Below, piece by piece: positions 1 through 54,410 of a stretch of DNA of 64,000 nucleotides. The stretch is from Kiloniella majae (GTDB taxonomy: Bacteria > Pseudomonadota > Alphaproteobacteria > Kiloniellales > Kiloniellaceae). The stretch spans positions 62,001 to 126,000 of the forward strand of contig NZ_MTSZ01000008.1 of assembly GCF_002118315.1 (NCBI RefSeq). The letters are read 5' to 3'. The translations under genes were made by a program, and so were the position numbers. The stretch's first letter is position 1. Every line of letters starts with the position of its first letter. The notes under the pieces were generated by a model. That model ran no database searches. It was not told where the DNA came from and saw only the letters and a program-made list of their open reading frames with translations.

Positions 1-720
1 GTTCACGGCATCAAGTTTTGCATTCAAATCGCGCCAAAACATATTTAACCTGCTCTTTGTCAGAATGTAGTAGTCCGATGTGGTGATCGCTTCTTGAAAG
101 GTAAAGTAATCACAGAGCATTCGATTAATGTCATGCGCCATTAGATCTCCTCTCTCTGGCCCCAAAGGAATAAGACCATCTATGCGATCTTCATAATGGG
201 AATAAAACCGCGTGCTTTCGAAATTTTGCTCATCAATTAATATTTCTCCAAAATACCCGTTTAACCAAATCATCACATGACTGTCAGGAAAATTATCCAT
301 TAGAGACCTGTAACTATTGAGAGCTTCTGCCTCCGAAGCTCCCCCCACTATAATCGAATGTAATAAGGTTCTTTTTCCAAAAGATCGTGCTTCATCCAAG
401 AAGCCTTTTTCTTTCAAGGCTTCACAAATGCATAGGTAAGATCTGCTTCCGCAATCCACGATGACTTCTGTTTCATCGTCAGTTCTCAAAATCATATTAA
501 AAAGGCTATCAATAGATTTGGGGTCAGCGGGATCATCACAATAGATATCAAACCATTTGGTATGGAAGACTTGGTATCTTGATAAGGTTCCCCCACCAGG
601 CTCTGTACTCACGCAAAGAACTTTTTTATTCCGCGCGATATAGTGCTGAGTTAAAAGAGATGCTGTAAAGGAAGTACCAACACCTCCTTTGCCGTTTAAG
701 AAAAAATGAATTGTCCCCAT
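1..720 (-). CDS. TraL-like conjugal transfer ATPase (ParA/MinD fold), C-terminus beyond the window
   Basis: An open minus-strand frame runs from an ATG at 720 to the left edge (240 codons, no stop). A GGAG sits about nine bases before the ATG. The N-terminus MGTIHFFLNGKGGVGTS is a deviant Walker A of the ParA/MinD class. Later motifs, such as IIVGGASEAEALNSYRSL, VMIWLNGYFGE and DYFTFQEAI, resemble TraL of the IncP transfer region, a cytoplasmic ATPase-like protein needed for conjugation. The usual second P-loop lysine (GKGGVGKS) is a threonine here, which may abolish or alter ATP hydrolysis. It follows repA, separated by iteron-like repeats. A plain ParA partition protein is the alternative; the TraL resemblance is by eye. 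Confidence 0.7.
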   Translation of the reverse strand, partial: MGTIHFFLNGKGGVGTSFTASLLTQHYIARNKKVLCVSTEPGGGTLSRYQVFHTKWFDIYCDDPADPKSIDSLFNMILRTDDETEVIVDCGSRSYLCICEALKEKGFLDEARSFGKRTLLHSIIVGGASEAEALNSYRSLMDNFPDSHVMIWLNGYFGEILIDEQNFESTRFYSHYEDRIDGLIPLGPERGDLMAHDINRMLCDYFTFQEAITTSDYYILTKSRLNMFWRDLNAKLDAVN

Positions 721-769
721 AATTATTCTCCAACTACAGGTTATTTAAATATAAGGTGATATAGGTTTG

Positions 770-835
770 CGCGACCAAATGACCGTGAAAATGACGTAAT
801 AACGCGACCGTTTGACCGTGAAGGCGCGACTAAAC
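770..835. repeat. Iteron-like direct repeats between repA and the TraL-like gene
   Basis: CGCGAC occurs at 770, 803 and 825, and TGACCGTGAA at 780 and 813. The spacings are 33 and 22 bp, both whole multiples of about 11 bp, so the repeats face the same side of the helix. The third copy covers the repA stop codon. Phased direct repeats next to a RepA gene are typical of an iteron origin or copy-control locus. Binding by RepA is inferred. Confidence 0.55.
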
Positions 836-1777
836 GTCTGTGGATAGTTTCGCGTTATAAGGAATGGGCGGCGGACTATGTTTCAATATCAATCCCCGGC
901 TCTTTCCCTGTGCGTCAAGGCTCTCACTCACCCGTGCATTGGGATAGATAAGCTTGACCGTTGAAAGCGTGCATATGAACTTCCGACGGAAATCTCTTAG
1001 TCGGGCATAGCCTCGACCAAATTGCCTCCACAACACAGGCCAATAGACGGTATAGGGCCTCTTCAATCTATGTAGACGCTGCGTCAACCAAAGATAAATA
1101 TCCATCGCCAAAGGAGAATGAGACACGGCTGTTACAGCCTTTAGATCTATCGGAACAGCTTGTTTTTGTAATGTCGCCCAATATTCTCGGGAGAGAACAA
1201 ACTCTGCCGACCAAAGTACCCGCGTTTTGGCCAGGGATAACCACATTAAGTCAAAATCGGATACAATATGACCTTGGCTTTGCCGCCCGCTTGAAGCCAT
1301 TCGAATAGTTGCCGTTCCTAAAGCGGATAGCTGATACTTGAATTCGGAAACATCTTGGCCATTTGGCTCTCTATTCAGTACCTTCTTCAAAAAAGCAGTC
1401 ATGGAACGGTTCGGCTTTATGACTGGGGATTGTTGCTTGATAGCCTCTGTACTCAAATGGATTAATGCCAATCTTGCCCGGCTACCATTAGGTAAAGGCA
1501 TTTCTCGCCACTTTTGAGTTCTGGGATCAAAAGCAGATCCTGCCTCTATCTGTAGAGCGGAGTTTCCATTCGTACACTCCCAAACCCGCGTTTCTTCTGG
1601 TAACCGCCGTGTGGGCAGAAAGTTTTGGCACAACGTACTATGTAAAAAGCCAATATCCGCACTTGGACCGGCCAGTAAATCATTTGCAGCACGAGCTACT
1701 CTGCACAATCGCGGATCAAGAAACTTACCGGCACGATCCTTGCCCTCAACAATAATCCTGACGTTCCTATTTCGCAT
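830..1777 (-). CDS. repA: Plasmid replication initiator, RepA family
   Basis: The protein (315 aa from the ATG at 1777) has the layout of the alphaproteobacterial plasmid-encoded RepA family (PF04796 type). Supporting motifs are FLHSTLCQNFLPTRR near the N-terminus, SRARLALIHLSTEAIK, a middle SEFKYQLSAL, and the C-terminal block SPLAMDIYLWLTQRLHRL followed by WRQFGRGY, FRRKF and a final SPPPIPY. Such proteins bind iterons and start plasmid replication. The ATG at 1777 has GGAG nine bases upstream inside the preceding gene and overlaps that gene by 11 bases, so translation is probably coupled. An upstream GTG at 1792 lacks a ribosome site. Its presence in an integrated element suggests that the excised circle can replicate. 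Confidence 0.85.
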   Translation of the reverse strand: MRNRNVRIIVEGKDRAGKFLDPRLCRVARAANDLLAGPSADIGFLHSTLCQNFLPTRRLPEETRVWECTNGNSALQIEAGSAFDPRTQKWREMPLPNGSRARLALIHLSTEAIKQQSPVIKPNRSMTAFLKKVLNREPNGQDVSEFKYQLSALGTATIRMASSGRQSQGHIVSDFDLMWLSLAKTRVLWSAEFVLSREYWATLQKQAVPIDLKAVTAVSHSPLAMDIYLWLTQRLHRLKRPYTVYWPVLWRQFGRGYARLRDFRRKFICTLSTVKLIYPNARVSESLDAQGKSRGLILKHSPPPIPYNAKLSTDV

Positions 1778-2024
1778 TATCGTTTGCTCCACCGGGAGAT
1801 TGTCGACAACGCCCTCTCTTTCGCGGGCGACCGCGTTTGCCTTTTCCGGGATCTATCACCTGATCCTCCAGCCAAGCTTCAATATCATCGACACGGTAAA
1901 CCGCGCTCTTCCCAATAATGGCATAAGCAGGCCCCGCCCCCCGACAAGCGAGCTGCGCAAGAGTCGTAAATTTCACGGGATACCGGTTAGGGACTTCTTT
2001 TCGAGTTAAGTATTTACTGCACAT
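1767..2024 (-). CDS. Excisionase/AlpA-like helix-turn-helix protein
   Basis: An 85-residue basic protein. Residues 6-55 (YLTRKEVPNRYPVKFTTLAQ, then YRVDDIEAWLED) form the winged helix-turn-helix seen in AlpA and excisionase-type proteins (HTH_17 class). The tail is rich in Lys/Arg (GKGKRGRPRKRGR), which suggests extra DNA contact. It is preceded by AGGAG eight bases before the ATG and overlaps repA downstream. In plasmid-like elements a small HTH gene just before repA usually regulates repA or, in integrated elements, helps excision. Which role it has here cannot be told from the sequence. Confidence 0.75.
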   Translation of the reverse strand: MCSKYLTRKEVPNRYPVKFTTLAQLACRGAGPAYAIIGKSAVYRVDDIEAWLEDQVIDPGKGKRGRPRKRGRCRQSPGGANDNAK

Positions 2025-2030
2025 TCAAAT

Positions 2031-2071
2031 CACTCCTAATCAACTGTATTGCAGTCCAATTAGGGTGAGTG
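2031..2071. promoter_or_regulatory. Imperfect inverted repeat upstream of the HTH-repA operon
   Basis: CACTCCTAAT (2031-2040) is mirrored by ATTAGGGTGAGTG (2059-2071) with a small bulge. The left arm covers the ribosome-binding region of the HTH gene. It could be an operator for the HTH protein or an RNA hairpin hiding the start site. Inferred from sequence only. Confidence 0.35.
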
Positions 2072-2180
2072 AATAGGAGCCAAATATGCAAATTGAGAAA
2101 TTTATAAATTTTCTGAATGTTCTATTGTCTTTGTTTATTCGCCATATAAAAATCACAATAAACTAATTAATAGCAAATAC

Positions 2181-3002
2181 TTATGAGATATTTTTTAATA
2201 AATCTTGATACTCAATCTCAATTTCATTTCGCACTGATTTAGGGCTTCTATCAACATCCCATAGCTTAACTATCAATTCAGATACTTCTTCTAACCCACC
2301 TACTCTAGGTTTGTGTAGACCAGCCTTAACAATCCAACATAAATGCTCATAACAAACTTCTTTAATTGGCCTCTCTTTATATCTTCTTCCTCTAGAAGGA
2401 ACTCGATAGTATTCAGTTTCATAGAACTGTTTAACCATGCCCGGTATAATCCCGTGCACTTCGACACAATATCTAATGGCTAGTTCTAATGTCATAGAAA
2501 CTCTGTATACAGCAGCCCACTGTCGCTCACTTAAATCTTCAATTTCGATCTGCTCAGAAACTTCTTTACAACGAAGCTGTATAGTTTTGCCTTCTGTTTG
2601 TTCTATTAAGTTCGGAACTTTTAAATTAGTCCAAGTATATTCATTTAAATAGAGGAGAAAAAGCCACCCAGTTATTGGTGAATCGATACTAGGCCCTTCA
2701 ACTTTATAATCACTAGGATCAGTATCCCATGCGTGCTCCTCAGTAATAAACATATCTGGGCGCCCCATACGTAAAAACCATTGAGTCTTTTTATATTTCT
2801 CTAAGGAAGACGTTTTTGCCCCTTGGTCTAGATACCTTTCCTCAGTAAAGCTCGTTTCTAAATACCTAGCATCCGAGATAAATATTCTGGAATCACCATG
2901 GATCCAATGCTTTAAAAATTTAAAAACTTCCTCACGGACAGAACCTTCACGACTGTTATTGATATAATCGGCAAGCTCACCAATTAAAAAACGTTTTCTC
3001 AC
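2181..3002 (-). CDS. Hypothetical protein, AT-rich orphan cargo gene of the element
   Basis: A 273-residue soluble protein without signal peptide or membrane segments. I recognise no domain. It is rich in charged and aromatic residues; the middle (PITGWLFLLYLNEYTWTNL) is hydrophobic/aromatic and the C-terminal half looks helical (LSERQWAAVYRVSMTLELAI). Base composition is clearly more AT-rich than the chromosomal genes, and the flanking DNA to the attachment site is very AT-rich, as expected for recently acquired cargo. It lies next to the attachment site, a common place for accessory or defence genes, but no function can be assigned. The start at 3002 is an ATG followed by a basic N-terminus (MRKRFLIGEL). 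Confidence is that it is a real gene. Confidence 0.7.
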   Translation of the reverse strand: MRKRFLIGELADYINNSREGSVREEVFKFLKHWIHGDSRIFISDARYLETSFTEERYLDQGAKTSSLEKYKKTQWFLRMGRPDMFITEEHAWDTDPSDYKVEGPSIDSPITGWLFLLYLNEYTWTNLKVPNLIEQTEGKTIQLRCKEVSEQIEIEDLSERQWAAVYRVSMTLELAIRYCVEVHGIIPGMVKQFYETEYYRVPSRGRRYKERPIKEVCYEHLCWIVKAGLHKPRVGGLEEVSELIVKLWDVDRSPKSVRNEIEIEYQDLLKNIS

Positions 3003-3097
3003 GCTATTTCCTTAAAACAATTCTTGGGACAATTTTGGGACAGTGAATTTAGATTCGAATGAAGTTCATTAAACTCAACCAAATTATATTACATTCA

Positions 3098-3143
3098 ATA
3101 TCAATAAGTTAAATAAAATATACTCTGATACCAATAGGTTAAA
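3098..3143. repeat. Pair of 16-bp direct repeats next to the attachment site
   Basis: ATATCAATAAGTTAAA (3098-3113) and ATACCAATAGGTTAAA (3128-3143) differ at two positions and are spaced by 30 bp, about three helical turns. The second ends three bases before the tRNA fragment. The layout resembles integrase arm-type or excisionase sites beside an att core; this role is inferred. Confidence 0.4.
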
Positions 3144-3146
3144 AAG

Positions 3147-3194
3147 GCCCTCCGAAGGCGAAGGTCACAGGTTCGAATCCTGTCGGGTGCGCCA
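3147..3194 (+). other. Attachment site: 3' end of tRNA-Arg(CCG), truncated copy
   Basis: The 48 nt hold a partial anticodon arm with loop CTCCGAA (anticodon CCG), the variable loop, a complete T arm (ACAGG, loop TTCGAAT, CCTGT), the acceptor 3' strand CGGGTGC, discriminator G and an encoded CCA. The sequence to its left does not supply the D arm or 5' acceptor strand, so it is not a working tRNA. A 3' tRNA fragment of this kind is the usual scar (attR) of an element that integrates into a tRNA gene with a tyrosine recombinase. The intact tRNA-Arg should lie at the other end of the element. Confidence 0.85.
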
Positions 3195-3216
3195 ATATTT
3201 CAGGCAAATTTTTCTC

Positions 3217-4137
3217 TTAGACTTTAAAACAATTATCCCGATGCCATCCCAAGAACTTTGGGTGCGGGCGTAATGAGGGGTTTTCAGGCGCAAATGCTCT
3301 CCCGCTGGAATTCACCAGACGTTCAATTTGGATTGGGTCGTTTACTTGTCGTGAGATCAAAATATCTAAATCATCGCTCAATGAAATCAGTCCACGATCA
3401 AACATCCAGTGCACTGTACCGGACAATGCTATTCCATTTCTGACCGTATCAGGGCCGTGTTGGGCCACTGGTTTAATGTGAGCGGCTTCAACCTCTGCTC
3501 TACCGCCACCGTTGATAAGCTGTAATCCAGTAATGGCACAGCGTCTGTCATAAGCATCTAGTACGTGTTTTCGAAACACACGATCCCGCGGGATACGCGA
3601 GATGGTTTGCTCAACTCGAAGACGTTCACTTTCATGGATAAAGCCTGAAGCGTCTTCCGATAAACCGTCCCATGCAGGTAAATCTTTGTTTCGCCCCAAA
3701 GCATCAGCCCGTGGCAGCATATCCGTTTCCTCGGGAAAACCTTGCAAAACAATCTGATTAAAATCAGCATCAGAAATCGGTCGTATCGCCCACTGAATCA
3801 AGCCAGCATTTAAAGACCCATCTTCTTTTCTAAGGTCAGATTCCATAAAACCATTATCTTTTCGAAATGAGACAAACTCTTCGAAAGACAAGAAAGTTCC
3901 CGGCGCAATGCGGGCAATATACATATCCTCGTTCAAGGTATCTGGTTCAATCGCCTCAATCTTGGCTATCGCGTTGTAGCCAAGCCTTCCGCCACCTCCG
4001 CGTGGTTCGTAATAAAGAACCCAATCATTTTCAAAGCGCTTTGCACGTTTCAAATAACGTTTGGGGAACTGATATTGCTCTTCCGGAAAATCGTCGTATT
4101 TTGAATCTGCCCGATGGACAAAAACGCCCTTTGCCAT
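3217..4137 (-). CDS. HNH endonuclease with an N-terminal PUA/SRA-like domain
   Basis: The C-terminal part carries an HNH_2-type nuclease motif: CAITGLQ, then EAAHIKPVAQHGPD, NGIALSGTVHWMFDRGLI. It contains the expected AH, N and H residues. The first 130 residues (from MAKGVFVHRADSKYDDFPEE through RFENDWVLYYEPRG to YIARIAPG) look like a small beta-rich reader domain of the PUA-like class, which in other HNH proteins recognises modified bases. A modification-dependent restriction role is therefore plausible. The gene begins 23 bp outside the tRNA scar, so it is either a host gene at an integration hotspot or part of an older insertion. The ATG at 4137 is used; a GTG at 4146 is possible. Confidence 0.7.
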   Translation of the reverse strand: MAKGVFVHRADSKYDDFPEEQYQFPKRYLKRAKRFENDWVLYYEPRGGGGRLGYNAIAKIEAIEPDTLNEDMYIARIAPGTFLSFEEFVSFRKDNGFMESDLRKEDGSLNAGLIQWAIRPISDADFNQIVLQGFPEETDMLPRADALGRNKDLPAWDGLSEDASGFIHESERLRVEQTISRIPRDRVFRKHVLDAYDRRCAITGLQLINGGGRAEVEAAHIKPVAQHGPDTVRNGIALSGTVHWMFDRGLISLSDDLDILISRQVNDPIQIERLVNSSGRAFAPENPSLRPHPKFLGWHRDNCFKV

Positions 4138-4204
4138 GATCAACACTTATTAGTTGAATAAATCACCTGGAATCACTTTAGGCTGATAAAACTTCCCCTG
4201 CAAT

Positions 4205-4249
4205 TAATTTCACCTGTCATAATTTCACCTGCCATAATTTCACAGTTCA
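4205..4249. repeat. Three tandem 15-bp repeats upstream of the GGDEF-EAL gene
   Basis: The unit TAATTTCACCTGTCA occurs at 4205, 4220 and, less exactly (TAATTTCACAGTTCA), at 4235. It lies in the 252-bp gap between the HNH gene and the GGDEF-EAL gene. A binding site array for a regulator is possible; nothing else is recognised in the gap. Confidence 0.5.
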
Positions 4250-4389
4250 AAATGTAAGAAAAACGCAATGCAACCCATGCTTGTTCATTTCTTGTTCATA
4301 AATTCAAGTGATAATTGAATATACGGGCTTATTTAAGCTTAAGGGTGGTTTTTACGAGCATATCAGGCATTTCCCCAAGGGACGTCACG

Positions 4390-6693
4390 ATGGAGCAGGT
4401 ACCACAGAATTTAAAAACCAAAATTCTAATTGTTGATGATAATGAAGGGGATAGACTGCTTATTGAGGCATTGCTATCTCATTCTTCCAATCAGTTTGAT
4501 TTTCAATGGACTCGGTCAGTTGCCGAAGCCAAGGCAGTTTTGGAAGATAACGCCAATATTCAGGCGGCACTGGTTGATTACAACCTTAACGATGGTAAAG
4601 GGATTGAGCTTTTACAGCATCAATCCAATCAAAACGAACAATGTCCCTGTATCGTGATGACAGGGCTGGAAAGTGCCGAAGTCGATCATGCCGCGATGGA
4701 GGCCGGGGCCGCAGACTTCCTGCCAAAAAATGAGATGACCGGCGTGTTGCTGGAACGAACCATCCGTTATGCCATCGAGCAGGATCAGGTACGACAGACG
4801 CTGCGACAGAAAAATATAGAGCTCAAACGCGCCCAGATGCGACTTGAAGCCCAGAATCTCAGTATCGCCAAGCTTGCCGAACACCTGACAGAAACCGCGC
4901 TGGAAAAAATTGACAAGCTGCGCAAGCACACCAACCTTCCCACCAGTGATCTGCATGACCTGCAAAAAACAAATCGGCTGGCAATCTGGCAGGTAACCTA
5001 TAGCGGTCAAACCCTGTTTATGAACAATGCCATGACCAAGTGGTTCTATCCCTTTTCCGGCGGCGATCAAGCCGACAGAGGTTTCACCAGCAGCGAGGAG
5101 CTCAGTAACATATCCTTTGCCTCCTTCCCCGACTATTTCATTGAGCAGGATCGTGGGCTGGTTGCCACCGAATTGACAAAGTGGCAGCGCGGGCAAGTTA
5201 CAAGCTTTGAAGCTACACTGAGGTTAAAGGACAAGAGATCAAACAAGCTTATCTGCCAAGATCGACACGTGATCGTTTCTGCAGCGACAACAGCCCCCCA
5301 CGATAATCTGGACGACACACTGTTAATCACCATGGTGGACATTACCAAGCGCCGGGTGATCGAAAAAAGCATGCAGGAACTGCTACACCGCGATGATCTG
5401 ACCGGATTGTACAACCGTCTTGCGTTCAACGAGTTCTTACCAACGGCCGTCGCAAATGCAGACCGCAACAATTACATGGTCGGCGTTCTCTATCTGGATA
5501 TAAACGGCTTTAAAAACGTAAACGATACCTATGGTCATCAGATTGGTGACCAGCTTTTGCAAAAGACCGCAAAGAAACTGGATTTCCATACACGGATATC
5601 AGACATAACCGCCCGGCTGAGCGGGGATGAATTTGGCATTATCCTCAACAATCTTCACTGTGAAAATGATGCCGCCGAAGTTGCGCTCAATATTCTAGAG
5701 GGTTTTAAAGATCCAATCACCATTGATGATCAGACCATTCTTATTGATATCAGCATCGGTATTTCACTCTATCCTCTCAACGGGGCTGATCCTGAAACCC
5801 TGATCAGAAATGCCGACCTTGCGCTCTATCGCGCCAAAAAGCTACCCGGAGCAAACTATGGCTTTTTTGACCCGGAAATGCTCAAGAAAATTTCTAACCG
5901 TCGCAATGTTGAACACAGCCTTCGCCTGGCAACCCATAATTTCAAGCAGTTTTCCATTCATTACCAACCACAGGTCAATGCGCTGGATGGGCAGCTTTCC
6001 GGTGTCGAAGCCCTGATCCGCTGGAACCACCCGGAACGCGGCCCTTTGTTACCCGGTGATTTCCTGACCGTTGCGGAACAAACCGGGCTCATTCTACCAA
6101 TTGGCACCTGGGTGCTTAATCAAGCGTGCAAACAGCTGAGAGAATGGCAGCTGGCCAAGCATCCAATCACGTCTCTGGCTGTTAATCTGTCTGCCATACA
6201 GCTTTATCAAGAAGACACCGTCGACAAGATCCGGAAAGCCATTATGCAATCCGGCTGCAACCCTGCCGGGCTAGTTCTGGAATTGACTGAAAACATCGTT
6301 CTCAAAGATCTGATTACCGCTAAAAAAGTCATTAATGAACTACGAAATCTGGATATCCGAATTGCGCTGGATGACTTTGGCACAGGTCATTCTTCGCTTT
6401 CTCTTTTGAAAGAACTTTCGGTTGATATTCTAAAGATAGACCGTTCATTTGTGAAAGATATCCACAGCCACAATCGCAATACCATTATCGTCAAAAACCT
6501 GACCCGAATGGCGCAAGATCTTGGCATTTCCGTTGTTGCAGAAGGCGTAGAAACAGCGGAAGAATTTTCCACAATCAAAGAATGCAAGTGTGAACATATT
6601 CAAGGTTTTCTGTTTGGAAAACCACTTGATCTTGATGCTTTAGAACGGTGGACCAGCAAGAATTTTACACCGGAAACACAAACACTCAATTAA
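4390..6693 (+). CDS. Response regulator with PAS, GGDEF and EAL domains (c-di-GMP turnover)
   Basis: A 767-residue cytoplasmic protein. Residues 10-125 form a receiver with phospho-acceptor Asp63 (ALVDYNL). A coiled coil and a PAS-like region follow. The GGDEF domain has SGDEF preceded, five residues upstream, by the RISD inhibitory (I) site. The EAL domain has EALIRW, DDFGTGHSSLS, KIDRSFV and EGVET. Both catalytic signatures look intact, so the protein may make and break c-di-GMP under control of phosphorylation. The start is the ATG at 4390, with AAGGGA eight bases upstream; an upstream TTG frame extends to 4315 without a ribosome site. It is followed at 40 bp by a sensor kinase, the likely source of its phosphate signal. 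Confidence 0.93.
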   Translation: MEQVPQNLKTKILIVDDNEGDRLLIEALLSHSSNQFDFQWTRSVAEAKAVLEDNANIQAALVDYNLNDGKGIELLQHQSNQNEQCPCIVMTGLESAEVDHAAMEAGAADFLPKNEMTGVLLERTIRYAIEQDQVRQTLRQKNIELKRAQMRLEAQNLSIAKLAEHLTETALEKIDKLRKHTNLPTSDLHDLQKTNRLAIWQVTYSGQTLFMNNAMTKWFYPFSGGDQADRGFTSSEELSNISFASFPDYFIEQDRGLVATELTKWQRGQVTSFEATLRLKDKRSNKLICQDRHVIVSAATTAPHDNLDDTLLITMVDITKRRVIEKSMQELLHRDDLTGLYNRLAFNEFLPTAVANADRNNYMVGVLYLDINGFKNVNDTYGHQIGDQLLQKTAKKLDFHTRISDITARLSGDEFGIILNNLHCENDAAEVALNILEGFKDPITIDDQTILIDISIGISLYPLNGADPETLIRNADLALYRAKKLPGANYGFFDPEMLKKISNRRNVEHSLRLATHNFKQFSIHYQPQVNALDGQLSGVEALIRWNHPERGPLLPGDFLTVAEQTGLILPIGTWVLNQACKQLREWQLAKHPITSLAVNLSAIQLYQEDTVDKIRKAIMQSGCNPAGLVLELTENIVLKDLITAKKVINELRNLDIRIALDDFGTGHSSLSLLKELSVDILKIDRSFVKDIHSHNRNTIIVKNLTRMAQDLGISVVAEGVETAEEFSTIKECKCEHIQGFLFGKPLDLDALERWTSKNFTPETQTLN

Positions 6694-6733
6694 CCAATTT
6701 GACAATAGTATCATGAAAAGAAGCTCGTAAATA

Positions 6734-8203
6734 ATGACAATTGCCACAGACATCCAATCACCTAAGATTTATAATTTTGCGCCTTGGGCTTTATCATCTT
6801 CTTTGTGTCTTGCTGGCTTCTTATATGACTGGCTCACCCCGCTTGGTGTGGCTGGCGGTCTTATCTATACAGTCTTTATTCTTAGCGGTGTTTTTCTGGA
6901 TTCAAACCGAATTGTATTTCTCTTTGCAGGAATTTCGTCCGCTTTAACCATCTTTGGCTATTTCCATATCCCTGATTCAATTGTAGATACTCAATGGATA
7001 ATCGTCTTGAACAGGACCATGACAATCATGGTTCTATGGGCCACCGCCTATTTGGCCTATGCAATCCAGCAATCCCTTCATAAAACCAAAGCAGCACAAG
7101 CACACACCGAAGCAATCATTAAAAGCGCAATAGACAGTATTGTTCTGATCAATGAGCGTGGAAAGATCCTGAATTTCAACCCTGCTTCGATAAAGCTTTT
7201 TGGGTACTCATTTAACGAAGCTGTTGGTCAAAACGTCAAAATACTGATGCCTGAACATTACGCCCGACAGCACGACCAGTTTCTGGATTATTACTTCAAA
7301 ACGGGTCAGGAAAAATTTATGGGTGAAAATCGCCAGATGATCGGAAAACGTAAAGATGGCAGTGAATTTCCTATGGATATCACAGTTGGCAAGTTGACTG
7401 CAGGAAACCAAACCCACTTTATTGGTATTATACGTGACATCAGTAAACGTATAGAGGCCGAACAAGCACGAGATCAGATGATTGAGGATCTCACCAAAAG
7501 CAACCAGGCCTTGGATGACTTTGCCTATATTGCCTCTCACGATCTGAAAGAACCGCTACGCGGCCTCGCCAACAACGCTATGTTTTTTGCTGAGGATTAC
7601 GCTGAAACATTAGACGAAGATGGTAACAAACGCATTGATCGCATGTGCACACTAACCAAGCGCATGGAAAAGCTGATCGACAATCTGCTTTATTTTTCAA
7701 GGCTTGGACGACAGGATTTAGCTATTCAACAGACAAATATCAACGACGTGGTTGGTGAAATCACAGGCATGATAGATACCCTGATCGAAGAGGAAGCCGT
7801 CCAGATCAATATCATCAAGCCTCTGCCCAGCATTATCTGTGACAGACACAGGATTGCAGAGGTTTTCAGAAACCTTATTACCAATGCCATCAAATACAAT
7901 GACAAGCCTGAGAAGGTTATCGATATCGACTTTTTGCCCGAAAAAGACGGACGAGAGAATGTCTTTTCAGTCAAAGATAATGGTATTGGCATCGCCCCCG
8001 AGTACCATGACGATATTTTCAAAATTTTCAAACGCCTGAACGTAGAAGAAGAGAAAGCCAGAGGAACCGGTGTTGGTTTGACCTTTGTCCAGAAAATCAT
8101 TGAACGGCACAGAGGCGAAATCTGGCTGGAATCAGAACCCGGCCTTAGCACCACTTTTTACTTCACAATAAACAGTAGGGAGGAAGACAATGACATCACA
8201 TAA
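6734..8203 (+). CDS. Membrane sensor histidine kinase with FixL-like PAS domain
   Basis: A 489-residue protein. Residues 15-112 contain about four membrane helices. Residues 118-240 form a PAS domain very like that of FixL (ILMPEHYARQHDQFLDYY, later GKRKDGSEFPM). His180 and Arg200 are 20 residues apart, matching the haem-ligand His200 and the oxygen-sensing Arg220 of Bradyrhizobium FixL, while the FixL Arg206 and His214 positions are not kept. The kinase part has phospho-acceptor His269 (YIASHDLKEPLRG), N box NLITNAIKYN, DNGIGI and GTGVGL. It overlaps the next receiver gene by 14 bases, so the two are a translationally coupled pair. Haem or oxygen sensing is a hypothesis; light or other signals cannot be excluded. 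Confidence 0.9.
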   Translation: MTIATDIQSPKIYNFAPWALSSSLCLAGFLYDWLTPLGVAGGLIYTVFILSGVFLDSNRIVFLFAGISSALTIFGYFHIPDSIVDTQWIIVLNRTMTIMVLWATAYLAYAIQQSLHKTKAAQAHTEAIIKSAIDSIVLINERGKILNFNPASIKLFGYSFNEAVGQNVKILMPEHYARQHDQFLDYYFKTGQEKFMGENRQMIGKRKDGSEFPMDITVGKLTAGNQTHFIGIIRDISKRIEAEQARDQMIEDLTKSNQALDDFAYIASHDLKEPLRGLANNAMFFAEDYAETLDEDGNKRIDRMCTLTKRMEKLIDNLLYFSRLGRQDLAIQQTNINDVVGEITGMIDTLIEEEAVQINIIKPLPSIICDRHRIAEVFRNLITNAIKYNDKPEKVIDIDFLPEKDGRENVFSVKDNGIGIAPEYHDDIFKIFKRLNVEEEKARGTGVGLTFVQKIIERHRGEIWLESEPGLSTTFYFTINSREEDNDIT

Positions 8204-8645
8204 TGTCGAACTGGAAACCATTCTCATCGTCGAAGACAACGTCGACGATTACGAAGCAACCGTTCGCAGCTTCAAAAAATCCCATCTACAGAACCCGGTC
8301 AGGTGGTGCAAAAATGGGGAAGAAGCCCTGAATTACCTTTATCGGACAGGCCCCTATGAGAATGATGACAGTGTGTTAAAGCCCTGTTTAGTCTTGCTGG
8401 ATTTGAATATGCCTGGTCTTGATGGACGCAAAGTTCTGGAGAGGATGAAGTCAGAAAAAGATACGACAAACATTCCCGTCATTGTTTTAACCACTTCATC
8501 TGATGAGATTGATATCAATAAATGTTACGAGCTAGGTGCCTCTACCTACATCCAGAAACCTGTTGGCTTTGAGGGGCTGCTCAAAGCAGCAGAGCAAATC
8601 AAGAACTACTGGTTCGGTCTCGCTCTACTCCCAAACAGGAGTTAA
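8190..8645 (+). CDS. Single-domain response regulator (Rcp1-like)
   Basis: A 151-residue stand-alone receiver. The acidic pocket is ILIVEDNVDD, phospho-acceptor Asp71 lies in VLLDLNMPGLDG, the switch residues are LTTSSDE, and the conserved lysine is in IQKPVG. There is no output domain. The extra loop between helix 2 and strand 3 (TGPYENDDSVLKPC) is typical of Rcp1-type regulators, which partner with phytochrome-like kinases. It starts inside the end of the kinase gene and ends two bases before the next gene. It probably shuttles phosphate between the two flanking kinases or to the GGDEF-EAL protein. Confidence 0.92.
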   Translation: MTSHNVELETILIVEDNVDDYEATVRSFKKSHLQNPVRWCKNGEEALNYLYRTGPYENDDSVLKPCLVLLDLNMPGLDGRKVLERMKSEKDTTNIPVIVLTTSSDEIDINKCYELGASTYIQKPVGFEGLLKAAEQIKNYWFGLALLPNRS

Positions 8646-8647
8646 TA

Positions 8648-10219
8648 ATGGCAGAGGCAATTCAGATACTCATAATTGATGACAGTGTTGATGACCAAGA
8701 ATTGTACAAACGCGCCCTGAAAAAAGTTAAAGACACAGTCTACGATGTAACCGAAGTCACGGATGGTGAAAAAAGTATTGCAATTATTAACCGAAATTCC
8801 CCTGATTGTGTGCTTCTTGACTATTCCATGCCAGGAAAGAACGGCATTGAAATTCTCAAAATCATCAAATCAAAACACCCCCACCTACCCGTTGTTATGC
8901 TGACCGGACAAGGCGACGAAACCATTGCCGTGGAAGTTATGAAAAATGGCGCGCAAGATTACCTTACCAAAAACACAATAAGCGCCGTTGTTCTCAATCG
9001 TGTCATCAAACACTCAATGGAACGTGCCCGACTGTCCAAAGAAATTTCTTTGCAACGAGATTCCTTAACCACATTCAGCCATGCACTGGCTCATGACCTA
9101 AAAGAGCCTGTTCGTATGATCAGGTCTTTTTTGAATCTGATTAGCTCTACCCAGGAATTGTTGCCTCAGAACAAAGAATATTTTGAACACGTTATCACGG
9201 CGACAAACAACATGGATCGGTTAATTGATATGGTCCATTGTTACACAAAACTGGATGCGCCAGACGAGTATTATCAAAAAGAACCTATAACTTTGCACAA
9301 GGTAATAGAACTGGCCCGGGTTAATCTTATTCGCGTATTAGAAAATGATATTCTAAACCTTTCTGTGGACCAAAATGTCAGCGTCAACGGTAATGAAACC
9401 CAACTGATGCAGCTGTTTCAGAACCTGATTATGAATGCGATCATTCACAACGACAAAGCCATCCCCCAAATTTCATTGGAAATTAAAACCGAAGATGATC
9501 TGGCGATGGTTACTGTCACCGATAATGGCCCCGGTATTCCAATGGAATATGCCGAACGAATTTTTGAACCTTTTGCGCGTTTTAGCTCTGAGAAAAAAGG
9601 CACCGGCCTCGGGCTGGCCATCTGCAAGAAAACGATTGAACGGCATGGCGGGAAACTTTGGTACGAACAATCGGCAGAAGGCGGAAGTACGTTTAAATTT
9701 ACGTTGAAACTCTGCAACAAGAATGAAAATCAGGAAAATCCAGAAAATACGCTGCCATCTCAGACACAAAATGGATCATCTAATGACAACATCCTCGCCA
9801 ATGTACTGCTGGTTGATGACGATGATCTCGACATTAAGCTAACCAAAGTTATGCTGCTTGAACGCGATGGTCTTAACTGTCGCTTACATATCGCTAAAAA
9901 TGGCGAAGAGGCGCTGACCTTCCTCAAAGCTCCTGATAATCCAAACATCGATCTTGTTTTGCTTGATATCAACATGCCGATCATGGATGGATTTGAGTTT
10001 TTACAAAACCTGCGCAGTACGGACCCCATCAAGGAAACCGCGATTATCATGTGCACAACCTCTAACAACGACAATGATATTCGTAAGGCAGAGAGCTTTG
10101 ATGTTCTTGATTACCTGAACAAGCCTATTACCCTCGACAAGATGCGCCCTTGTCTGGATAGTTACGAAAATCTGGATCTTCAGGAAAAAAATGGACAGAC
10201 TCTACTTTGGCGGCATTAG
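8648..10219 (+). CDS. Hybrid sensor kinase, REC-HisKA-HATPase-REC
   Basis: A 523-residue soluble protein with no membrane segment. An N-terminal receiver (phospho-acceptor Asp58, LLDYSMPGKNG) is followed by a kinase core with His149 (FSHALAHDLKEPVRM), N box NLIMNAIIHN, DNGPGIP and GTGLGLAI. A second receiver at about 383-510 has Asp440 (LLDINMPIMDG). Input therefore comes through the first receiver rather than a membrane sensor, which fits a phosphorelay with the neighbouring kinase and single-domain receiver. It closes the four-gene cluster and converges on the MFS gene 29 bp away. Confidence 0.92.
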   Translation: MAEAIQILIIDDSVDDQELYKRALKKVKDTVYDVTEVTDGEKSIAIINRNSPDCVLLDYSMPGKNGIEILKIIKSKHPHLPVVMLTGQGDETIAVEVMKNGAQDYLTKNTISAVVLNRVIKHSMERARLSKEISLQRDSLTTFSHALAHDLKEPVRMIRSFLNLISSTQELLPQNKEYFEHVITATNNMDRLIDMVHCYTKLDAPDEYYQKEPITLHKVIELARVNLIRVLENDILNLSVDQNVSVNGNETQLMQLFQNLIMNAIIHNDKAIPQISLEIKTEDDLAMVTVTDNGPGIPMEYAERIFEPFARFSSEKKGTGLGLAICKKTIERHGGKLWYEQSAEGGSTFKFTLKLCNKNENQENPENTLPSQTQNGSSNDNILANVLLVDDDDLDIKLTKVMLLERDGLNCRLHIAKNGEEALTFLKAPDNPNIDLVLLDINMPIMDGFEFLQNLRSTDPIKETAIIMCTTSNNDNDIRKAESFDVLDYLNKPITLDKMRPCLDSYENLDLQEKNGQTLLWRH

Positions 10220-42503: not shown

Positions 42504-42773
42504 TTAGCGGCGAAGGCCGAGACGTTTAATCAGAGCATCATAACGGCCCTGATTTTTCTTTTTGGTATAGTCCAGCAGACGACGACGCTGACCAACCATC
42601 CCAAGAAGACCACGACGGGAATGGAAATCCTTTTTATGATCTTTCAGGTGTTCAGTCAGGTTGTTGATACGCTCAGATAGAATAGCTACCTGTACTTCTG
42701 GAGAACCAGTATCACCTTCAACAGTTGCGAACTCTTTGACGAGTTCCTGCTTACGCTCAGCCGTAATCGACAT
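42504..42773 (-). CDS. rpsO: 30S ribosomal protein S15
   Basis: An 89-residue protein, the standard length for S15, which binds 16S rRNA and nucleates the platform. [20 protein letters not shown]-type motifs are present ([49 protein letters not shown]). It lies between truB and pnp, as in most proteobacteria. Confidence 0.98.
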
Positions 42774-42808
42774 CGCTTTTCCTTCTTTAAAAGCTATCTA
42801 GGAAAACC

Positions 42809-43738
42809 CTAGAGATTTAAAACACGTACTGATCTCACCTCACCTTTTTCAAATCGGGCCAGAGCAACGGGAGTTCCATTTTCTGTTGCCAGAAAAACAT
42901 CGCCGTTAACTAAGTCTCCAATCCGGTCAAGGTCATGTCGCGTTATCATAGATAACACCTGCCCCTGACGAAGGCGGGTTGCTTCAGCTTCTGATAAGGC
43001 CAACGCCGAGATGTCGTCCAGCGCGGTCTCTACCGGGAGCAAAAGCCCGTCGGCAGCGGGACTATGCCCGATCTCTTCAAGAGATTCCAGTGAAATCGCA
43101 TGTTCTAGAGTAAAGGGTCCTACGCGTGTACGTCGTAGCTCGATTACATGCGCACAAGTCCCCAGTGCCTTGGCAAGGTCACGCCCCAAAGAACGGATAT
43201 ACGTTCCTTTACCGCAATCGACCTCAAACTCGGCGACATCCTCGTTGCGCATGTCGATTAAATCAAACCGACTAATATGCACAATACGGGACTTTAGCTC
43301 GAACTCTTCATCTCCATCACGCGCAAGATCGTAAGCTCTCTTTCCATCAACTTTAATTGCTGAATAGCGCGGTGGTACTTGTTCCACATCGCCAACAAAA
43401 TTTGCAAGAGCTTGAAGTATATCTTCTTTTACAGGGCGTACTGGACTGATTTCAATAACTTCGCCCTCGCGATCTTCTGTAGAGGTCGCTTCCCCCCACT
43501 TAACCGCAAAGCGATAGGTTTTACGCCCATCCATTGCATAGGATACTGTTTTGGTTGCCTCACCAAATGCCAAGGGAAGCAAACCACTGGCCAAGGGATC
43601 AAGCGTTCCGCCATGCCCCACTTTCTGAGCATTAAGAGCTCGTCTGGCCTTGCCAACCAATTGTGTAGAAGAAAGTCCAAGAGGCTTGTCCAAAACAAGC
43701 CATCCATGGATAGGAAGACCTTTTTTCTTACGGGCCAT
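42809..43738 (-). CDS. truB: tRNA pseudouridine-55 synthase
   Basis: A 309-residue enzyme that makes pseudouridine 55 in the tRNA T loop. Catalytic Asp47 is in GHGGTLDPLASGLLP; LDKPLGLSSTQLV and RYSAIKVDGKRAYDLAR are the other family motifs, and DCGKGTYIRSLGRDLA follows. A C-terminal PUA-like segment (FLATENGTPVALARFEKGE) is present. It overlaps the end of rbfA by one base. Confidence 0.97.
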   Translation of the reverse strand: MARKKKGLPIHGWLVLDKPLGLSSTQLVGKARRALNAQKVGHGGTLDPLASGLLPLAFGEATKTVSYAMDGRKTYRFAVKWGEATSTEDREGEVIEISPVRPVKEDILQALANFVGDVEQVPPRYSAIKVDGKRAYDLARDGDEEFELKSRIVHISRFDLIDMRNEDVAEFEVDCGKGTYIRSLGRDLAKALGTCAHVIELRRTRVGPFTLEHAISLESLEEIGHSPAADGLLLPVETALDDISALALSEAEATRLRQGQVLSMITRHDLDRIGDLVNGDVFLATENGTPVALARFEKGEVRSVRVLNL

Positions 43739-44190
43739 CAGCTGTCCGCTTCGTCATCCCCGGCTTGCGAATCGATCAACGCATCATCGTCATCGTGACG
43801 CAGATCCTGCTGAACACTATCACTTTGCAGCAACGTATTGATTTTGGCAGCTTCATCAAATGAAGTATCCGGTTCGAAACCAATCCTAGGGCAACTTCTC
43901 AATCGCAGCATATGGCTTAATTCACGCCGGAAAAATCCATTCGCTTTATTCAACGATTTTGTCACTGCTTCAAGATCTGCCCCACCCAAAGGCACAACAA
44001 AAGCTGTCGCATTCTTCAGATCAGGACTAATGCGCACTTCTGAAATAGTGATAATCACACTTTCCAGGTTCGGATCATTAAAGCTTGTCCGGTTCAATAT
44101 CTCAGACATCGCGTGGCGAATTTCTTCGCCCACGCGTAACTGTCTTTGACTTCTGGGTGTACCACTGCGGTTTTTATTATTGGAACTCAT
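43738..44190 (-). CDS. rbfA: 30S ribosome-binding factor A
   Basis: A 150-residue KH-fold protein that assists late 30S maturation. RQLRVGEEIRHAMSEILNR, ITISEVRISPDLKNATAFVV and RLRSCPRIGFEPDTSFDEA are diagnostic. It has an acidic, disordered C-terminal tail after residue 130. It sits between infB and truB in the conserved operon. Confidence 0.96.
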   Translation of the reverse strand: MSSNNKNRSGTPRSQRQLRVGEEIRHAMSEILNRTSFNDPNLESVIITISEVRISPDLKNATAFVVPLGGADLEAVTKSLNKANGFFRRELSHMLRLRSCPRIGFEPDTSFDEAAKINTLLQSDSVQQDLRHDDDDALIDSQAGDDEADS

Positions 44191-44218
44191 ATCATCCCTT
44201 TATCGCTGACGAGAGCTA

Positions 44219-46897
44219 CTATAGCTCTCGTGCGATTTCTTCGATGACGTAACACTCAATCTGATCACCCACTTGAATGTCTGAATAGTTTTCAAAGGCC
44301 ATACCACATTCGTAGCCTTCTTTCACTTCCTTCACTTCGTCTTTAAAGCGACGCAAAGTTTTCAGCGCACCATCATGGATAACCACGTTATCGCGTAGCA
44401 AGCGAACTTTAGATCCACGTTGAACTGAACCCTCGGTGATCATGCAACCCGCAATCTTACCAACCTTGGTAATATTGAAGACTTCGCGGATCTGAGCATA
44501 ACCAGTGAACTTCTCACGCTGTTCAGGCTCAAGAAGGCCGCTCATCGCTGCTTTCACATCATCCACGACGTTGTAGATAATGGAATAATAACGAATATCA
44601 ACGTTTTCGCGACGTGACATTTCACGTGCCTGCGGGTTTGCACGAACGTTAAAGGCAATAACGAATGCACCCGTAGACTGAGCCAGGGTAATATCTGATT
44701 CGTTAATCGCACCAACGCCAGTGTGAAGAATGTTCACCTTAACTTCGTCAGTGTTCATTTTCTGCAAGCTTGTTGCGATGGCTTCCATAGAACCGTGTAC
44801 GTCAGCCTTGACGATAACCGGAAGTTCTTCCGCTTTGCCTTCTTTCAGCTTGGCAAGCATCTGTTCCAGAGAACCACGACCAGCTGCTGCGGCAGCAAGA
44901 TCTTTTTTCTTCTGCTCACGATATTCAGCAATTTCACGAGCTTTGGCATCGGTATCAACAACAACAAAATCATCGCCGGCACTCGGTGTACCGTTTAGAC
45001 CCAACACCTCGACAGGAAGTGACGGCCCAGCAGAATTCACCTTCTGACCGCGTTCGTTTGTCATGGCACGAACACGACCCCACTCGCTACCTGTTACAAA
45101 AATATCACCAATATTCAGCGTACCTTTTTGAACAAGCACAGTCGCGACAGAACCACGGCCCTTATCAAGCTTGGCTTCAATCACAGCACCAATAGCAGCA
45201 CGATCAGCATTTGCTTTCAGTTCAAGCAATTCAGCCTGGAGCATGATGGCTTCTTCAAGCTTATCGATACCCATCTTTGTTTTAGCTGACACTTCAACAG
45301 TCTGGATTTCACCACCCATGTCTTCGACAATCAGCTCGTGCTGTAGCAATTCCTGCTTAACACGATCAGCATTCGCTTCGGGTTTATCCATTTTGTTGAT
45401 CGCAACAATGATCGGCGCATCAGATGCTTTAGCGTGGTTAATCGCTTCGACAGTCTGTTCCATAATGCCATCATCACCGGCAACGACCAGAACAACGATA
45501 TCCGTTACAGTCGCACCACGCAGACGCATTTCAGTAAAGGCGGCGTGACCCGGTGTATCCAGGAAGGTGATCTTGTTACCAGAGGCAAGGTTCACCTGAT
45601 AGGCACCAATGTGCTGGGTAATACCACCGGCCTCACCACGGACAACGTCCGCAGAACGAATGGCGTCCAACAAAGATGTCTTACCGTGATCCACGTGGCC
45701 CATGATGGTAACAACAGGAGAGCGAGTTTGTTGCTCTTCATCGGTCTCATCCTGATTACCGAGAATACCTTCTTCAACATCCGCCGCAGTAACACGTTTG
45801 ATTGTGTGACCAAGTTCCTGAACAACAATTTCCGCAGTGTCAGCATCGATCGTCTGATTGATCGTTGCCATCACACCAAGCTTCATGAGCTGTTTGATAA
45901 CTTCAGTCGCACGTTCGGCCATACGGTTCGCCAGTTCCTGAACTGTAATTGTTTCAGGCAGGATAACTTCACGTAAAACTTTGGTCGGCGCTGCGCGATT
46001 ACCACCACGCTCTTGTTGAAGCTTCTTCTGACGGCGGCGCTTAACAGACGCCAATGAACGTTGACGCCCATCATTATCTGAAGTCGCACTGGATATAGTT
46101 AGTTTGCCTTTATTACGGCGATCGCCAGTGGCCTCTTTTTTATCAGTAGCCTGCTTTGGAACAAAGGTAGGTTTGTTCCCTTGCTTAACACGACCACCAA
46201 GTTCATTTGCAATAGCTTCCCCAACGGATGCTGGTGCAACATTAGGCTTTTTCTTTGGTCTTGGCTTTGGTTTAGCAGAACGAGGATCAGGCGCACGCTC
46301 AGCAGCTTCGCGCTTCTTGCGAGCTTCCGTGGTTACACGTGCAGCAACTTTGGCTTCTTCTTCTGCTTTTTCCATTGAACTTTTAGTGTTTTCGGCTCGA
46401 GCAGTAGCAGCTTCGGCTTTTACGCGCTCAGCTTCTTCCGCAGCGAGACGCGCATCTTCTTCAGCTTGAATAGCAGCTTTACGTTTGTTTTCTTCTTCCA
46501 GACGCTTTTGCTCTTCTTCCACAGCCTGCTTCTTGCTTTCTTCAGCTTCACGTGCAGCCGCTAGGACCTGCATACGTTTTGCTTTTTCAGCATTTGTCAG
46601 ATCATCATGCGGTGCCACAGGCTTTGCTGCTTTCTTTGGCGCAGCAGGTGCCTTTTTCTCTGGCTCCGGCGCTTCGGTCAGGCTTGGCTCTGGCGTCGTA
46701 ACTTCAGCCATGCGCCCACTCTCACCGCGCTCGAATGTGCGGCTACGTTTTACTTCCACAGTAACGGATTTAGACCGCCCATGGCTAAAACTCTGCTTAA
46801 CCTGGCCGGTTTCTACAGTTTTCTTCAACTCAAGCGTATTCGGCCGGCTTAATGTCAGCGGCTTTTTGCTCTTACTGGTGTCCTTGCTCGAGGTCAT
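44219..46897 (-). CDS. infB: Translation initiation factor IF-2
   Basis: An 892-residue GTPase that places initiator tRNA on the ribosome. The first 300 residues are a long Glu/Lys/Ala-rich, probably helical and flexible region. The GTPase has [28 protein letters not shown] and SAKTKMG; domains II to IV follow. An alternative internal start, as in E. coli, cannot be judged. It overlaps the ylxR-like gene by 4 bases. Confidence 0.98.
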
Positions 46898-47574
46898 TCT
46901 TTCAGGCGTCCACTTACTTTTTTGGCGGGATGTCCCGCAATTCCTCTTACAGCTAACAACCGCGCCACATCAGCGGCGAACCTATCAGCGATTCCACTCG
47001 GTCTAAGCGCTACATGTACCCAGGTATCCCGGCCTAGCGCTTGCCCTAGCTCATGCCCGGTAAAGGTTTCGTTTATCGGCAAGTCGGGATCAATAGCCCT
47101 GGCCAATGCACGAATTTTACCGCGCCCATCTTCTGCCGCATCGGCGGCTTGTACAAGTATCTTGACGTTCCCTGAAGAAAGCCAAGCTTTCGTTTTTTCA
47201 AACCCTGCTACTAAATGTCCTGCACGTTTTGCCAGACCAAGAGCATCAAGGCAACGTTTCGTTAGCTGCGCGTCAAGTTGCTCGATCAAATCATCGGGCA
47301 CTTTGACCTTCGCTTTAGCCGAACGAGCGAATAATTGTTTATGACACGCTTTCTCTACCATATCCCGGCTTGGAGACAACCAGATTCCGCGTCCCGGCAG
47401 TTTTCCGAATAAATCCGGCACCACATTTCCGTCCGGCCCGATCACAAATTTCAACAGGGCCGACTGAGGGAAAAGATCACCAGAAGCGATACAGCGTCTT
47501 TCAGGCTCGCTCTTCCGCTTCTTTCTAACCTTCTTCTTTCCCTCAGTTTTTTTTGTCGTTACAGACTTAACCAA
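46894..47574 (-). CDS. YlxR/L7Ae-type RNA-binding protein
   Basis: A 226-residue protein with an N-terminal YlxR domain ([38 protein letters not shown]) and a C-terminal L7Ae/L30e-like domain ([33 protein letters not shown]). The fusion is usual in alphaproteobacteria and sits between nusA and infB. It probably binds RNA or ribosomes; its role is not settled. The N-terminus is strongly basic. Confidence 0.92.
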
Positions 47575-47597
47575 AGTATCTAATCCTCTGGCTTTAT

Positions 47598-49142: not shown

Positions 49143-49266
49143 TTGCCCTCAAATCCTCAATCTATCATGAAAGCCAGAATTATATTCTGTACCATCACTT
49201 TACTTGTTTATCCTATAGCGCGGCGTATTCAATACCTCGCTACAACGCATTATTCACAAGCGCGTA

Positions 49267-49812: not shown

Positions 49813-49908
49813 TAACTCATCTCCGTTTGCATATGCGTCCGTTTTATGTTTTTGGTTATGCCCTTGATATAAAGACAAAAAACAATAAAAGACGCTGAAT
49901 TTAGATAC

Positions 49909-49956: not shown

Positions 49957-49979
49957 ACAACAAAGTGTGTCCCGGGCGC

Positions 49980-54405: not shown

Positions 54406-54410
54406 ATCGG

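Follow-up and report, generated by a model that had tools for sequence, protein, structure and literature searches.

In the available part of one published account (PMC5704250), the IncP islands of Brucella suis and Burkholderia glumae are small proteobacterial elements for which IncP helpers are proposed; the Brucella island is listed there with a tyrosine integrase, RepA and the 3′ end of guaA, and the B. glumae island is given as encoding TraK, TraJ, a MobP relaxase and TrbJ/TrbL. GIsul2, in the same part of that account, is relaxase-less and has Rep proteins and a proposed IncP helper; it sits at guaA, has trbJ-trbK-trbL and is described as lacking any relaxosome protein (PMC5704250). Islands of the MGIVflInd1 type (MGIs) and SGI1 appear there as relaxase-less chromosomal islands needing a helper, which is an SXT ICE (MobH relaxase) or an IncA/C plasmid; the MGIs have Int, RDF and a helper-like oriT, and for SGI1 the listing gives a theta replication initiator (PMC5704250). 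The iOriT class of Hitcher Genetic Elements is defined, in the available section of another paper, as integrating and oriT-bearing without a relaxase (PMC11389934). As far as its partly available description goes, pPDL2 of Sphingobium fuliginis is a plasmid with RepA, int, an attP matching tRNA-Ser, an oriT likened to that of pLB1 and organophosphate-degradation cargo, and it recombined with a cloned attB (PMC3516476).

The window, that is, the whole stretch of 64,000 nucleotides analysed from Kiloniella majae, opens with the right end of a 22,718-bp element, which is probably an integrative mobilizable element lacking a relaxase ("iOriT") and equipped with a plasmid-type replicon of its own. 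This reading is built on sequence features: Int lies beside the intact tRNA-Arg(CCG), the att repeats match, the site is empty in a congener, and the element has an oriT as well as a replicon made up of RepA and iterons; excision, replication and transfer of the element we infer. The element carries the integrase; type I secretion genes, a giant RTX protein and an HlyC-like acyltransferase as cargo; an XseA-like gene; the IncP-type oriT; the TraK-like gene; TraL; the iterons; RepA; and an AlpA-like gene. Since it has its own integrase, replication gene and transfer start site, and no transfer machinery was found by the searches given below, it would most likely excise from the chromosome and ride on the conjugation systems of other plasmids. 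The features are as follows (C55, contig coordinates).

C55:42400-42476, intact tRNA-Arg(ccg)
C55:42429-42479, attL inside the intact tRNA, exact 51-bp partner of attR
C55:61375-61448, composite IncP-type oriT, upstream of the traK-like gene
window 1..720, minus strand, TraL-like protein, continuing 6 bases left of the window, to C55:61995
window 763..838, no strand, putative oriV of three iteron-like repeats between repA and traL
window 830..1792, minus strand, RepA replication initiator
window 1767..2024, minus strand, AlpA/excisionase-like helix-turn-helix protein, overlapping the repA start by 26 bp
window 2181..3002, minus strand, 273-aa protein in a variable slot
window 3147-3194, truncated tRNA-Arg 3′ end proper
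window 3147..3197, plus strand, attR, the 48-nt 3′ end of tRNA-Arg(CCG) plus 3 nt, exact 51-bp repeat
window 3217..4146, minus strand, HNH_2 gene of the right chromosomal flank

The first-pass annotation took the truncated tRNA-Arg(CCG) for the boundary between plasmid-type genes and the chromosome, held that only a right end was in view, and advised looking leftward for an intact tRNA-Arg(CCG) with the same 48-nt end, a tyrosine integrase and further tra/trb genes. The boundary is borne out by attR and its partner within the intact tRNA; the left end lies 22,718 bp away, and both tRNA and integrase were found there, about 22 kb to the left, the integrase 98 bp beyond the tRNA, so that the refuting outcome named at first pass, neither a second 48-nt copy nor an integrase over 100 kb, did not occur. 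A 34-base pattern searched through the whole genome with up to two mismatches found two sites only, attL and attR (none in the reversed control). When the element's own flanks were fused at the att core into a query of 601 bases, contig C157 of a congener (G048) aligned over query positions 122-601 at 91% with 2 gap positions; the alignment begins where the tRNA starts, crosses the junction and takes in 400 bp of right flank. The left flank was on another contig, C79, which terminates at the tRNA. The tRNA-Arg site of this congener is accordingly empty, and the HNH_2 gene directly adjoins it. In another genome (G046) the HNH_2 gene lies about 375 bp from the tRNA, and about 350 additional bases beside the tRNA ruled it out as a clean empty site; a third (G044) was ruled out by a different HNH gene next to the tRNA. 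Att repeats, Int and empty site together point to site-specific integration by the element's own integrase. At E 1e-90, Int was matched in 3 of 385 genomes of the class, namely its own, one from another family (G226) and G115; the G115 match is 47%, and the 3,984 bases retrieved around it hold tRNA-Ser(tga), not tRNA-Arg.

The RepA, the iteron-like repeats and the excisionase-like helix-turn-helix gene proposed at first pass all withstood closer analysis. RepA matches PF04796 at E 9.8e-10, above the cut-off. The first iteron-like repeat overlaps the repA end; when the same stretch was shuffled 300 times by mononucleotide, one shuffle reached the quality of the repeats, and the intervals between the three GTCGC cores are 22 and 33 bp both here and in the relative from another family. 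RepA and iterons thus make up a plasmid replicon of the RepA_C type, with replication predicted from these features. The AlpA-like protein matches PHROG 66, "excisionase and transcriptional regulator" (E 5.6e-6), with HTH_17 at E 7e-5 and 23.4 bits, below the cut-off of 27. Prophages commonly have a tyrosine integrase, an AlpA-like regulator and a tRNA site, and Int and AlpA here do match PHROGs, so that a prophage or phage satellite might be supposed. However, nine proteins searched against PHROGs (the secretion and RTX proteins left out) gave no structural, terminase or packaging match, relatives of RepA occur in 898 of 72,556 plasmid records as against 1 of 50,697 phage records (that one of 3.9 kb), one scan of viral contigs yielded no confirmed RepA relative, and an IncP-type oriT is present. 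On the PHROG, phage-record and viral-contig results a phage origin was rejected, and it is extremely improbable.

The composite oriT comprises a GTTGAGC hairpin, GCGAAGAAG, an 8-bp inverted repeat and the nick TATCCTGCC. The same layout is found in the traJ-traK gap of R751, which was read by eye, and in that of a Nitrosomonas conjugative plasmid (nick TATCTTGCC; the best hairpin found by script is 12 nt from the nick), and the oriT also resembles that of contigs in two congeners (G042 and G047). The arms of the nick-adjacent inverted repeat vary among the relatives, yet they are complementary in five of the six sequences tested. A search of 61 genomes from the order found the composite pattern in 4, each belonging to the same genus, and not in the reversed control; the pattern was drafted after these sequences had been seen and so tests specificity only. 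A shorter pattern gave 2 matches in the reversed control of the 61 genomes, only the longer one being clean. The element can thereby be said, on its nucleotide pattern alone, to carry an oriT. The TraK-like protein gave a profile match (probability 95.5, E 1.3e-8, 46 columns) to three plasmid proteins, two annotated as TraK family and one hypothetical beside TraL; its match to DUF5338 (E 0.061) is below the cut-off, and tblastn against plasmids gave no match at E 0.01. Of the "TraL-like ATPase" suggested initially, the first half holds, with NF010461 matched at E 9e-44 over residues 1-239 of 241, at 149.7 bits against a model cut-off of 360. The second half is doubtful, because the P-loop reads GKGGVGTS, where both Kiloniella copies have threonine in place of the lysine.

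Pfam scans of the main ORFs found no relaxase, coupling protein or VirB4 among the element's proteins, and its own draft genome has no PF03432 relaxase and no PF03135 VirB4, hence no helper genes of these two families, although identical searches do find matches in congeners. Within that scope (main ORFs; genome-wide, PF03432 and PF03135 only), neither a relaxase nor a mating-pair formation system is present, and the relaxase, coupling protein and type IV secretion system that an integrative conjugative element encodes are missing. The element is therefore hardly self-conjugative; on these scans self-conjugation was rejected, and the first-pass suggestion that the element perhaps conjugates is not supported. 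The element does have the TraK-like gene and the IncP-type oriT. With these and without a relaxase, transfer would need mobilisation in trans.

Relatives at the same tRNA were found in Kiloniella spongiae and in the genome from another family. The latter relative spans 18.2 kb, shares the tRNA base at which the att core begins, and has other cargo (a Piwi protein, restriction and Fic genes); it retains a TraJ/NikA-like gene, and this complete element has no relaxase or T4SS gene among 12 ORFs given to Pfam. The K. spongiae genome has no PF03432 and no PF03135 match. The AlpA-like gene is retained in both relatives. At the position of the 273-aa protein, K. spongiae has a 376-aa ORF that gave no tblastn match to it, and the other relative has no ORF of 100 aa or more. 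A survey of named genomes with the RepA profile gave 37 loci, with TraL, TraK and nick motif together only in K. spongiae; among the other 36, in a listing that left out HlyD and ABC matches, the T(A/G)TCCTGCCC string is present in three and an Int match in four, none with TraL or TraK. Could the element once have been a self-transmissible ICE, its tra/trb genes deleted and the RTX block put in within its own lineage? The retained TraL and TraK-like genes, and the TraJ/NikA-like gene of the distant relative, would fit; however, that relative, with other cargo, likewise shows no relaxase or T4SS gene among its 12 scanned ORFs, the K. spongiae genome lacks PF03432 and PF03135 matches, and RepA relatives are frequent in plasmid records, which leaves this history very unlikely.

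In both relatives RepA is broken (by in-frame stops in the one, by frame breaks in K. spongiae), and in K. spongiae TraL is also frame-broken, so the replicon is not intact in either. This damage, the TraL without its P-loop lysine and a genome without PF03432 or PF03135 would also suit a stranded remnant, a formerly mobilizable plasmid fixed at tRNA-Arg and now an RTX-secretion island that neither excises nor transfers. Against it, the frames of Int, AlpA, RepA, TraK and TraL are all open in the K. majae copy, nick and hairpin pairing are preserved in the oriT, all 51 bp of the att repeats are identical and a congener site is empty; such a remnant is unlikely. Tentatively, and with a chance slightly below even, these islands may represent an unnamed family in the Alphaproteobacteria, made up of hitchhikers that replicate themselves, have no relaxase and combine a single chassis with interchangeable cargo. 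The chassis might then consist of Int at tRNA-Arg(CCG), an AlpA-RepA-TraL operon, and oriT with TraK, and the cargo could be RTX secretion in one and Piwi, restriction and Fic genes in another. TraL would perhaps have moved from a transfer operon into the replication operon, where it may be a ParA-like maintenance protein or, without the P-loop lysine, a non-ATPase part. PADLOC on seven proteins gave only a weak DruC match on the XseA-like protein (E 0.027), and HNH matches on the flanking gene; Rfam gave no match in window 1-6000.

For the preferred mobilizable element, the following course may be proposed. First, the AlpA-like protein would steer Int toward excising the element as a circle, which RepA acting at the iterons would keep replicating. 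Second, in a cell with a helper plasmid whose MOBP relaxase matches and which also brings a type IV secretion system, this relaxase and the element's own TraK-like protein would nick oriT, and the strand would be exported. Third, Int would reinsert the element at the tRNA-Arg of the recipient. On this reading the RTX secretion genes of K. majae would be exchangeable cargo. The two congeners with resembling oriT contigs carry TraI-type relaxases and are potential sources of helpers, so that helper-dependence is directly testable in a marine genus. Relaxase-less integrating elements are difficult to detect because the usual marker gene is missing, and an oriT with TraK but no relaxase is suggested as a search key for more of them.

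As far as the available parts of the cited accounts allow comparison, the element shares a tyrosine integrase and RepA with the Brucella IncP island, but that island is at guaA and the Kiloniella element at tRNA-Arg(CCG). With the B. glumae island it shares the IncP-type relaxosome protein TraK, but only a TraK-like gene, and no relaxase, TraJ or Trb, was found in it; it differs from these IncP islands also in having TraL (PMC5704250). It is like GIsul2 in the missing relaxase, the Rep and the proposed IncP helper, whereas the guaA site, trbJ-trbK-trbL and the stated lack of a relaxosome protein are features of GIsul2. MGIVflInd1-type MGIs and SGI1 are likewise relaxase-less, but the oriT here is of the MOBP/IncP type instead (PMC5704250). 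Like pPDL2, this element is a replicon from the Alphaproteobacteria that has RepA, int, an att site matching a tRNA, and an oriT, but pPDL2 was found as a plasmid and with tRNA-Ser, the present element in a chromosome and at tRNA-Arg(CCG) (PMC3516476). By sequence the element falls under the definition of the iOriT class, which is a category and not a sequence family; a replicon of its own, TraK and TraL come in addition here (PMC11389934). The relaxase-less iOriT kind is already known, and an IncP-type oriT, a traK-like gene and a replicon together in one tRNA island would be a variant of it.

The boundaries of the integrative element are settled. The window spans C55:62001-126000, and subtracting 62000 from a C55 coordinate gives the window position. 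A 34-base pattern from the end of the tRNA, run against the entire genome (56 contigs, 4.38 Mb) with up to 2 mismatches permitted, was found at exactly two sites, C55:42443-42476 and C55:65161-65194 (window 3161-3194), while a reversed control run alongside gave 0 matches in the same genome. The exact repeat is 51 bp (C55:42429-42479 and 65147-65197). ARAGORN places an intact tRNA-Arg(ccg) at C55:42400-42476 but reports no tRNA at the right copy. The element is 22,718 bp in size, its right end lies at window 3147-3197, and its G+C content is 43.3%, compared with 46.0% in window 10001-64000. What the first-pass annotation observed, a boundary at a truncated tRNA-Arg end, is right; its refuting condition, the lack of a second copy of the 48-nt end and of an integrase within 100 kb, does not hold, as both are present, and both boundaries are now located.

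Gene content of the element, left to right (C55 coordinates, strand, feature)
42575-43561, +, tyrosine integrase (Phage_integrase, E 5.5e-31)
43568-44896, -, HlyD, type I secretion adaptor (above NCBIfam cut-off)
44897-46699, -, ABC exporter (above NCBIfam cut-off)
46706-58255, -, RTX protein of 3,849 aa, scanned in two pieces (RTX repeats; Lipase_3 match just below cut-off)
58255-59502, -, 415-aa protein with no Pfam family
59524-60069, -, HlyC-type acyltransferase
60257-61417, -, XseA-like protein (longest reading overlaps oriT)
61375-61448, oriT-like site
61582-61944, +, TraK-like protein of 120 aa
61995-62720, -, TraL
Right of TraL, inside the window: iterons, RepA, AlpA-like HTH protein, 273-aa orphan

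Scans of the element's proteins revealed neither a relaxase nor a coupling protein nor a T4SS gene. As cargo, the island carries the RTX protein together with a dedicated HlyD/ABC exporter and a HlyC-type acyltransferase (L003:7568-16000, L004:1-8069). The XseA-like protein (L004:8257-9417) combines an Exonuclease VII large-subunit C-terminal region with a hydrophobic tail recognized by eye, and occupies the slot at which R751 carries traJ/traI; since its longest reading overlaps oriT, the real start is probably downstream.

Read by eye, the traJ-traK gap of R751 shows GTTGAGC, then a short hairpin, then GCGAATAAG and finally the nick CATCCTGCCC; the TraK gene comes next, and after it an ATPase gene at the traL position. 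The oriT-like site of our element has GTTGAGC, next a hairpin, then GCGAAGAAG, then an 8-bp inverted repeat and lastly CCTATCCTGCCC; the order and the orientation to the traK-like gene are identical to those of R751. In RP4, according to excerpts of PMC7314908, TraJ binds an inverted repeat near nic and TraK acts at oriT. By script, five of the six sequences show perfect pairing of the inverted repeat beside the nick despite differing letters; its arms are GTTAAGTG/CACTTAAC in our element, GGAAAGTGG/CCACTTTCC in K. spongiae and AAAGTG/CACTTT in G226, a genome of another family, and those of the congener G042 and of G344, another genome of the class survey, are likewise paired. The best scripted hairpin of a Nitrosomonas plasmid lies 12 nt from the nick. 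A loose oriT pattern matched 4 of the 61 genomes of the order, yet also gave 2 control matches, and a composite pattern matched the same four with 0 control matches; both were composed after the members were known and speak for specificity rather than for independent discovery. A class-wide pattern, composed after the relatives were known and not fitted by our own nick, matched 2 of 385 genomes (G226 and G344) with 0 control matches. The G344 site (L090 about 1440-1545) is IncP-like and stands in another context, with an IS3-type ORF, a pair resembling a toxin-antitoxin system and a TraK-like ORF in its vicinity, all named by eye.

The P-loop reads GKGG(V/I)GKS in TraL of R751, the Nitrosomonas plasmid, an Azospirillum plasmid and G226, and GKGGVGTS, with threonine in place of lysine, in that of our element and K. 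spongiae (window 1-720; L011 about 3003-3450). The replaced residue is the P-loop lysine, and its loss makes ATPase activity of TraL in Kiloniella doubtful. In R751, as in RP4 (table in PMC7314908), traL comes after traK and has the same orientation, whereas in our element and in G226 it follows repA and points opposite to traK; we hypothesize that TraL works in the replication unit. RepA belongs to PF04796. Its relatives occur in 898 of 72,556 plasmid records, always below 60% identity; among 50,697 phage records, one has a relative. In our element as in G226, the stretch separating repA from traL holds iteron-like repeats with core spacings of 22 and 33 bp. As 1 of 300 mononucleotide shuffles matched the observed repeat quality, our own repeats alone are modest evidence.

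TraL matches were found in 10 of 385 class genomes, our own among them; G226 reaches 50% over residues 1-240, and the remaining places 19 to 41%, the 41% one spanning just 46 residues. G226, whose genome is a single contig, carries tRNA-Arg(ccg), Int (78%), TraK (48%), TraL (50%), RepA (69%, interrupted by in-frame stops) and AlpA (65%). Its att core and ours begin at one and the same tRNA base (index 29), and a second copy of its core lies 18.2 kb away. The G226 element retains a TraJ/NikA-like gene, and its cargo (12 ORFs given to Pfam) includes Piwi-domain, DUF4365, RES-domain, Fic, DndB-like and PRiA4 ORF-3-like proteins and a DpnII/MboI-type nuclease. The Piwi-domain (Argonaute-like) protein, of 799 aa, adjoins this nuclease (L049:11204-14811). 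A RepA match was found in G226 alone among 25 genomes of its family, and in three of the 61 in our order, namely our own, K. spongiae and G013 (32%). The chassis is thus rare in these samples yet common to both elements, and the cargo differs.

Within Kiloniella, the tRNA pattern occurs without mismatch in 5 of 9 genomes. In G048, our flanks joined at the att core align with contig C157 over query 122-601 of 601 (91.25%, 2 gap positions), beginning at the tRNA start and running through the junction, and our left flank aligns with contig C79, which stops at the tRNA; by these alignments the site is empty, as seen over two contigs overlapping in the tRNA. Two G048 contigs end in an identical exact 77-bp tRNA. 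A separate G048 contig holds an integrase fragment of 94% identity to ours, and a population with filled and empty sites mixed is possible (L034, L036, L035). G046 has about 350 extra bases after the tRNA and then the same HNH gene as our right flank, and G044 has a different HNH gene there. Right of the HNH gene, our genome has response-regulator/GGDEF and histidine-kinase-like genes (window 4315-10219, by eye), as against an MFS-like transporter nearby in G046 and G048. The K. spongiae site is filled: the tRNA and an integrase (93%) lie close to the end of one contig, and a second contig holds attR, AlpA, RepA, TraL, TraK and oriT, with the RepA N-terminus and TraL frame-broken. Past oriT follow different genes, including an A24 prepilin peptidase and an MshEN-domain protein, which, as the contig stops, may or may not be cargo of that element.

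Of the 9 genomes of the genus, 3 (G042, G043, G047) have PF03432 relaxases and 2 (G042, G043) PF03135 VirB4; neither was found in our own genome. An 8.7-kb contig of G042 carries a NikA/TraJ-like gene, a matching oriT and a relaxase with a TraI middle domain, assigned to MOBP type, besides two genes that match DUF5338 weakly, below the cut-off. G047 has a full IncP-like oriT on a repC-bearing contig (C96; L101 6177-6254), and the nick region of this oriT has ACCTATCCTGCCC in common with ours; none of the PF03432 matches of this genome is on that contig, and its TraI-type relaxases lie on two other contigs. The G042 and G047 relaxases are possible helpers that may act on our oriT.

The reading that fits our element best is that of a self-replicating integrative mobilizable element without a relaxase, one predicted to excise, replicate and transfer. 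Among the matches listed in the open-access literature, seen mostly by title and abstract opening, none deals with a Kiloniella element or with such a combination at tRNA-Arg(CCG). iOriT elements are defined, in the part of PMC11389934 consulted, as integrating, with oriT present and relaxase absent, and our element fits the sequence part of this definition. According to portions of PMC5704250, IncP islands have RepA and TraK in common with our element; the island of B. glumae differs in having its own relaxase, and that of Brucella is listed at guaA, ours being at tRNA-Arg(CCG). GIsul2, in the same source, resembles our element in lacking a relaxase but differs in carrying trb genes and in its listed site, guaA.
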